From Nitrosarchaeum koreense MY1 (GTDB taxonomy: Archaea; Thermoproteota; Nitrososphaeria; Nitrososphaerales; Nitrosopumilaceae), in NCBI RefSeq assembly GCF_000220175.1, contig NZ_AFPU01000001.1, forward strand, positions 124,001 through 188,000: a stretch of DNA of 64,000 nucleotides. The letters are read 5' to 3'. Position numbers and translations under genes: made by a program. Under the pieces are notes generated by a model, which was given only the letters and a program-made list of their open reading frames with translations, was not told the origin of the DNA and searched no databases. Positions 30,775 through 32,782 of the stretch are shown piece after piece; the first letter of the stretch is position 1; every line of letters begins with the position of its first letter.

Positions 30775-32145
30775 ATGGCAAAATTTTTTGGAACAAATGG
30801 CATTCGCGGTGTTTTTTCTGAAGATTTTAGCTTAGAATTTGTACATGATATGACATTGGCAATTGCAACTTATTTCAAATCAGGACCAATATTGGTTGGA
30901 TACGATGGAAGAGAATCAAGTCAAATAATTGCAAAGGTTGTGTGTTCTGCAATAAATTATACCGGACTTGATTGCAATAATGCAGGACTTGTACCAACTC
31001 CTTGTCTTGAATATGCTGTAAAGAAACTTGGATATTCTGGTGGAATTATGATTACAGCATCTCATAACCCTCCACAATATAATGGAATTAAACCCTCTGC
31101 AAAAGATGGCGTAGAAATATCACGAGAAGATGAATTAGTAATAGAAGATATTTTTCTGAATAAAAATTGGATAAAAAATCCGACTACATTTGGAACTACA
31201 GGTAAAGAAAACAGAGCAATTGATGTTTATGTTAATGGAATAATTTCACATATAGATTCCCAGAAGATAAAATCAAAACATCTGAAAATTGTTTTGGATT
31301 TAGGAAACGGGGCACAGGCAGTTACTGCACCTATATTTTGTAAATCAGTAGGATGTGAAATATTTTTAATTAATGATAAAATTGACGGACAATTTCCTGG
31401 GCGTGGTTCTGAACCAACTCCTCAAAATCTTTCTGAACTTTCCAAATCAGTTAAAGACAATAATGCAGATTTTGGAATTGCATTTGATGGTGATGGAGAT
31501 CGAAGTATATTTTGTGATAATAACGGAGAGATCCTTACTGGTGATAAATCCGCTTTAGTACTTACAAAATTTATTTTACAAAAAAATCCTAATTCTCTAG
31601 TTGTTACTTGTTTGAATTCTGGTTCAAATATAGAACTTGTTGCAAATGAATTTAATTCAAAAGTAATACGAACTAAAGTTGGAAGTGTAGAAGTATCGCG
31701 AAAGATGGTACCTACAAATGCATTAATTGGTTTTGAAGAAAATGGGGGATTCATGTTTGGAAAACATAATCAGGTAAGAGATGGTTGTATGACTTTAGCT
31801 TTAATGATGGATCTTTTAGCAAAATCTGAAAAAACACTATCTGAATTAATTTCTGAACTTCCACCCTCTTTTACAACAAAAGATAAAGTTCCATGTCCTC
31901 AAGATAATTCTAAAAAACTAATAAAATCACTAAAAGAAGAATTTCCTAATTCTGATATAACTGACGGAATAAAAATTACAATAGATTCTAAAAACTGGGT
32001 TATGATAAGACCCAGTGGTACGGAACCCATAATTAGAATATACGGAGAAGCTGAAAGTCAGCAAAAACTAGACACTTTGATGTCAAAATACATTCAAAAA
32101 GTCAAGTCTGTCATTTCCGATAACACTTTTAAAACCAATCCATAG
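30775..32145 (+). CDS. glmM: Phosphoglucosamine/phosphohexomutase
   Basis: 456 aa, alpha-D-phosphohexomutase family. The phosphoserine loop is TASHNPPQYNG, the metal loop DGDGDRS, the sugar-binding loop GFEENGG and the phosphate loop RPSGTEPIIRIY. By neighbourhood and family it isomerises glucosamine-6-P to -1-P for UDP-GlcNAc, or mannose/glucose phosphates. It stands upstream of the ribosomal operon with a separate leader between. Confidence 0.9.
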   Translation: MAKFFGTNGIRGVFSEDFSLEFVHDMTLAIATYFKSGPILVGYDGRESSQIIAKVVCSAINYTGLDCNNAGLVPTPCLEYAVKKLGYSGGIMITASHNPPQYNGIKPSAKDGVEISREDELVIEDIFLNKNWIKNPTTFGTTGKENRAIDVYVNGIISHIDSQKIKSKHLKIVLDLGNGAQAVTAPIFCKSVGCEIFLINDKIDGQFPGRGSEPTPQNLSELSKSVKDNNADFGIAFDGDGDRSIFCDNNGEILTGDKSALVLTKFILQKNPNSLVVTCLNSGSNIELVANEFNSKVIRTKVGSVEVSRKMVPTNALIGFEENGGFMFGKHNQVRDGCMTLALMMDLLAKSEKTLSELISELPPSFTTKDKVPCPQDNSKKLIKSLKEEFPNSDITDGIKITIDSKNWVMIRPSGTEPIIRIYGEAESQQKLDTLMSKYIQKVKSVISDNTFKTNP

Positions 32146-32151
32146 CATGAT

Positions 32152-32177
32152 GGGAATGGAGAATGATCCCTAAAGGG
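32152..32177 (+). promoter_or_regulatory. Kink-loop-like element in the L7Ae leader, with a competing hairpin
   Basis: The RNA reads GGGA - AUG - GA - GAAU - GA - UCCC (32152-32170): a 4-bp stem, a 3-base bulge, opposed GA dinucleotides able to form tandem sheared G-A pairs, and a 4-base loop. This is the kink-loop consensus that L7Ae recognises. The CCCU at 32168-32171 can instead pair with AGGG (32174-32177), which precedes the GGGUGA ribosome-binding site, so the two folds exclude each other. The ATG follows at 32187. L7Ae control of its own message through such motifs is known in other archaea. Confidence 0.6.
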
Positions 32178-32186
32178 TGACATAGT

Positions 32187-32573
32187 ATGGGTAAAGCTTA
32201 TTATGTAAAATTTGAGACGCCAGAGGAACTGGTAAATCCAATCTTGGAAGCTGTTAGAGTTGCATCTACCAGTGGTAAAGTAAAGAAAGGAACCAATGAG
32301 GCAACAAAAGCCATTGAACGAGGTACAAGCAAACTTATCGTTATCGCTGAAGATGTTGAACCACCAGAAGTAGTAGCACATCTTCCTATCTTATGTGAAG
32401 AGCAAGGCGCAGCATATGCATTTGTTCCAAGCAAACAAGAATTAGGAAAGTCTTTGGGCATTGACATTACTTCTGCCGCTGCAGCAATTTTAGATGCTGG
32501 TGATGCACAACACATAGTTGACCAAGTTGTCTCAGCAATTGCTAAAATTAAAGGTGGAAAGTCTAGCAAATGA
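32187..32573 (+). CDS. rpl7ae: Ribosomal protein L7Ae (kink-turn binding)
   Basis: 128 aa. The L7Ae/L30e fold is recognisable from [14 protein letters not shown] (RNA-contacting region) and [26 protein letters not shown]. It binds kink-turns in 23S rRNA and is also the core protein of box C/D, H/ACA and RNase P particles. First gene of the L7Ae-S28e-L24e-NDK-aIF5B operon; its stop overlaps the S28e start by 4 bp. Confidence 0.97.
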
Positions 32574-32782
32574 GTACTACAACTGACGACGTAACTCAAT
32601 CTGAAATTATTCAAATTGTTGGTCGAACTGGTATTGCAGGTGAAGTCATTCAAGTTAGAGTAAAAGTTCTTTCTGGTAAGGATAAAGGTAGAATTCTTAC
32701 AAGAAATGTTAAAGGTTCTGTTAGAATAGGAGAGATTCTTATGTTAAGAGAAACCGAGAGAGAAGCAAAGAAAATTCATTAG
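32570..32782 (+). CDS. rps28e: 30S ribosomal protein S28e
   Basis: 70 aa. The OB-fold signature includes [19 protein letters not shown] and the C-terminal [13 protein letters not shown] of S28e. ATG overlaps the L7Ae stop, so translation is coupled. Confidence 0.97.

Follow-up and report, generated by a model that had tools for sequence, protein, structure and literature searches.

A probable k-turn at the Shine-Dalgarno sequence of the l7ae leader in Nitrosarchaeum koreense, and its strand-swapped form in related families

Autoregulation of L7Ae through a k-turn in the l7ae leader is known in Sulfolobus and other archaea, as described in the main texts of two papers (Daume 2017, PMC5539422; Huang, Ashraf & Lilley 2019, PMC6298567). 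The main-text passages on it name no thaumarchaeote. The yeast L30e k-turn, as presented in the main text of PMC6298567, is a parallel case in which a ribosomal protein of the L7Ae family controls its own mRNA; however, it acts on splicing as well as translation, and the leader is unrelated. In a K-loop, stem I (the C-helix) of the k-turn is replaced by a loop (PMC8413462).

The window analyzed here is a stretch of 64,000 nucleotides from N. koreense MY1 (contig NZ_AFPU01000001.1, positions 124,001 to 188,000 of the forward strand), and all coordinates refer to it. The l7ae (eL8) gene occupies 32187-32573 on the plus strand, with its ATG at 32187, and its product matches TIGR03677 with 158 bits (cut-off 134.6). 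It is preceded by glmM (30775-32145), whose stop is 41 nt from the l7ae start, and followed by rps28e (32570-32782), which overlaps its end, and then by rpl24e. The promoter and ribosome-binding features are as follows.

32127..32134, plus strand: l7ae promoter TATA box, TTTTAAAA, within the 3' end of glmM
32156..32159, plus strand: predicted transcription start, +/- about 3 nt
32176..32180, plus strand: Shine-Dalgarno (SD) sequence GGUGA, 6 nt before the AUG and inside the non-bulged strand of the element described below

In the leader comparison, the GATAACACTTTTAAAACC form of the TATA box is kept in nearly all family relatives. The box persists in relatives without an l7ae leader, where the ATG lies 21-24 nt downstream. 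In marine Nitrosopumilus-type genomes (L062, L064, L065, and L067-L079), l7ae is leaderless, with the TATA box 23-24 nt upstream of the ATG and with neither k-turn nor SD. In the leaderless nop5 genes of the genus Nitrosarchaeum (L265-L273), the ATG follows a TATA box by about 20-22 nt; they therefore lack a leader k-turn of the kind reported for Sulfolobus nop5. For SD-less genes within the window, the spacing from TATA box to start is mostly 20-28 nt. The predicted l7ae transcription start was obtained by applying the spacings of the leaderless relatives, nop5, and the SD-less genes to this promoter. A literature search found no published start-site data for Nitrosopumilus.

Leaders aligned by eye and by pattern gave the consensus R-(A/G)AU-GA-(U/A)-CCC-N3-GGG-U-GA-(C/U). 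In the window, this conserved element reads 5'-G·AAU·GA·U·CCC-UAAA-GGG·U·GA·C-3' and spans 32161-32181, shifted downstream relative to a fold proposed in an initial annotation of the leader. Its parts, assigned from the leader alignment, are listed here.

32158..32161, plus strand: GGAG, 5' strand of a minimal C-helix; G32161 is -1b, and most relatives have G-C or A-U at -1b:-1n
32162..32164, plus strand: bulge L1-L3, AAU (GAU in other genera)
32165..32166, plus strand: G1b and A2b of the tandem G-A pairs
32167..32170, plus strand: 3b (U) and CCC, the 5' arm of the NC stem; the stem is complete in 71 of 75 distinct elements, a count biased by selection because the elements were chosen by a pattern that includes CC...GG
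32171..32174, plus strand: terminal loop UAAA; most relatives have a loop of 3 nt, and family f3 one of about 11 nt
32175..32178, plus strand: GGG, the 3' arm of the NC stem, and 3n (U)
32179..32180, plus strand: G2n and A1n of the tandem G-A pairs
32181..32181, plus strand: -1n (C), partner of G32161, from the covariation count

As in a standard simple k-turn, a 3-nt bulge (AAU) is followed by tandem pairs (G32165 A32166 / G32179 A32180), and the NC helix extends beyond the G-A pairs (CCC/GGG). The C-helix in the window species is Watson-Crick only at -1b:-1n (G-C), and positions -2 and -3 are mostly non-canonical in relatives. The element lies within the l7ae leader and covers the SD; GGGUGA, the predicted non-bulged strand, contains GGUGA. 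With U:U at 3b:3n and G:C at -1b:-1n, the element does not favor ion-only folding by the sequence rules given in the main text of PMC6298567. L7Ae keeps the N-E-x-x-K-x-x-x-R recognition residues (N37, E38, K41, and R45); in the L7Ae of A. fulgidus, N33/E34/K37/R41 reads G1b and G2n, according to the same text (PMC6298567).

The element resembles the archaeal l7ae-leader k-turns described in the main texts of PMC5539422 and PMC6298567 in its gene, in the GAU-type bulge followed by G-A/A-G pairs, in the weak C-helix, in an SD adjoining or within the element, and in the non-self-folding choices at 3b:3n and -1b:-1n. It differs from them in that the Nitrosarchaeum SD is the non-bulged strand and the element stands at the predicted 5' end of the mRNA. 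The archaeal box C'/D' K-loop (PMC8413462) likewise keeps the tandem G-A pairs and the NC helix, with a minimal C-helix; that K-loop belongs to a guide RNA, whereas the element in the window belongs to an mRNA leader, is closed at its NC end, and has its C end at the mRNA 5' end.

The -1b:-1n combination is G-C, A-U, or G-U in 97 of 105 leaders, and the position is paired in 67 of 75 distinct relatives. Among 38 aligned elements, 31 have the pair; 11 of these carry changes in both partners, a number that none of 500 shuffles reached. This covariation is modest and partly tracks phylogeny. The two outer NC pairs show no variation. Being short and nearly invariant, the NC stem yields little covariation, and for the same reason RNAalifold returned no consensus structure for the element alignment; single-sequence folds of the element were not more stable than shuffles. 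Covariation as sole proof of a k-turn was dropped, since the variable pairs are too few. The unit remains intact while the loop varies (3 to about 11 nt, the longest in f3), as do the distances to the TATA box and to the AUG. We regard this as stronger evidence than the covariation of the NC stem.

A pattern scan with ATGANCCN3-6GGGTGA gave a single match in the 1.6-Mb genome, located at the l7ae leader. A covariance model applied to the same genome found the l7ae leader with an E value of 3.2e-4, the next best being 0.32; an Rfam search returned tRNAs only. In 121 genomes of the order, the matches of a stricter pattern fell about 20-35 nt upstream of l7ae wherever the position of l7ae was known, and reversed-pattern controls gave few matches. 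The distribution was counted among 165 genomes with l7ae leaders. The k-turn form is present in 82 of 102 genomes of the window's family (f1), 5 of 5 in f2, 2 of 2 in f3, and 14 of 15 in f8, where the fifteenth carries an evident variant, GAUGAUCCUACUUGGUGAU. Twenty f1 genomes are exceptions; 8 appear leaderless, and 12 have degenerate leaders such as GAGAAUAAUCCCC, in which G1b is lost. The control would therefore be dispensable and have been lost several times.

In eleven further families of the class, the two strands occur at l7ae in swapped order, GGGNGA-(5-10 nt loop)-GAUGANCCC. This form was found in 14 of 14 genomes of f4, f5, f7, f9, f10, f11, f12, f14, and f17, in 4 of 4 of f20, and in 3 of 8 of f22. 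The swapped pattern is less strict than that of the first form, and G+C-rich genomes give chance matches to it elsewhere; the claim thus depends on the position at l7ae. Where the match is clear, GGG lies 21-29 nt after the TATA box (mostly 21-26; 29 in f5), so the mRNAs with the swapped form probably begin at or a few nt from the element. The strand order in these deeper families is D'-loop-C', as in the archaeal box C'/D' K-loop, and the predicted fold is a true K-loop geometry. That the core survives strand exchange is strong evidence for a selected RNA structure.

In f5, f7, f10, f20, and f22, L7Ae has the AUG of GAUGA as its start codon, and the protein begins MTP, MSP, or MNP; the loci with the start codon within the bulged strand of the permuted K-loop are L127, L217, L224, L292, L294, L214-L216, L221, L225, L227, and L228. 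In f4, f9, f11, f12, f14, and f17, a short reading frame of the MNP, MTP, or MIP type starts at the AUG of the K-loop, ahead of l7ae. These upstream frames (L124, L125, L126, L128, L129, L231, L290, L291, and L295) end before or overlap the l7ae start and are possibly relics of an earlier l7ae start codon. In L124 (f9), the GAUGAACCC strand has two candidate partners, GGGCGA upstream and the SD GGGGUGAUC downstream, and this arrangement may be intermediate between the strand orders. A covariation of CUGGG/CCCAG versus UUGGG/CCCAA in two permuted elements was not upheld on recheck.

We give about even chances to a class-wide reading, in which l7ae mRNAs begin at a k-turn whose strands were swapped in evolution; eleven families have GGGNGA-loop-GAUGANCCC, and four have GAUGAWCCC-loop-GGGUGA. 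The promoter would fix the kink element at the first nucleotides of the mRNA. One form would use the SD itself as a k-turn strand, and the other would use an SD-like strand and, in five families, the start codon in that role; the upstream MNP-type mini-frames in six families may be start relics.

The initial annotation had drawn a different fold from the same leader. Its letters are confirmed (GGGA 32152-55, AUG 56-58, GA 59-60, GAAU 61-64, GA 65-66, UCCC 67-70, CCCU 68-71, AGGG 74-77, GGGUGA 75-80, and the L7Ae ATG at 32187). From these it built a kink-loop whose 4-bp C-stem pairs GGGA (32152-55) with UCCC (32167-70) and which could not form together with a CCCU/AGGG hairpin at the SD. The 5' arm of that stem is the following.

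32152..32155, plus strand: GGGA, 5' arm of the earlier-proposed stem, outside the conserved element

The stem can form in the window species and a few relatives, but all four pairs are present in no more than 4 of 75 distinct relatives, much as in controls with the arm slid by 1-3 nt (0-3), and its stability is no higher than that of shuffles (z = 0.02). G32152 is U in most congeners, and the Nitrosopumilus arm reads UAGA/ACCC. Given a start at about 32156-32159, GGGA is probably absent from the main l7ae transcript; read-through from glmM could include it. Compared with the conserved element, the proposed register is off by 6 nt for the bulged strand and 14 nt for its partner. The label of K-loop does not fit, because the drawn fold has a C-helix but no NC helix, a polarity opposite to that of known K-loops. 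We consider this fold extremely improbable. The CCC/GGG pairing of the proposed hairpin at the SD is conserved; however, it would be the NC stem of the re-registered k-turn and not its alternative. With the hairpin part of the k-turn, the switch does not select one of two folds; it more likely lies between an L7Ae-stabilized and an open state.

The same CCC/GGG hairpin spans the SD, and UC/GA pairing can lengthen it in some species, as would suit a plain SD-sequestering hairpin that acts as an intrinsic or thermosensitive translational brake, with neither k-turn nor L7Ae. Nitrosopumilus, with GA-ACCC, cannot form the longer fold but still has the bases of GA/GA and of the bulge. The swapped form retains GA/GA and the GAU bulge in another relation to the SD, and the element is essentially confined to l7ae, so we judge the plain hairpin unlikely. 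We think a reading at the DNA level very unlikely, in which the conserved sequence would be a promoter or initiator element beside an ordinary SD, with no RNA structure. Conservation does set in at GAAUGG, about 4 nt ahead of the predicted start, and the TATA spacing is nearly fixed in f1; but f8 keeps the CCC/GGG unit at varying TATA spacings, loop lengths differ, and the complementary strands are permuted in other families.

We consider it probable that the k-turn at the SD of the l7ae leader mediates translational autorepression by L7Ae; the transcription start, the binding, and the repression are what we infer from sequence. The broad idea of the initial annotation, an L7Ae-binding kink element with feedback by blocking of the ribosome site, agrees with the data and with published biology, although the specific structure was wrong. 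The l7ae mRNA would start near 32158 and carry a leader of about 29 nt, nearly all of it one k-turn, with the bulge AAU, tandem G-A pairs, a 3-bp CCC/GGG stem, a 4-nt loop, and a minimal C-helix at the mRNA 5' end. When free L7Ae is absent, the weak hairpin would open and ribosomes would load. Surplus L7Ae would bind, lock the kink, and cover GGUGA, so that its own translation stops; the repression would perhaps extend to the overlapping rps28e.

The mechanism itself is known, and the novelty is limited to a thaumarchaeal form with an unusual placement. The finding would extend L7Ae autoregulation to ammonia-oxidizing archaea, through an element that is about 20 nt long and defined exactly enough to be tested. 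The design would be compact, in that the ribosome-binding site doubles as a protein recognition strand. Sister families, with their permuted versions, would provide a natural test, pointing to selection on the k-turn core and not on the linear sequence.
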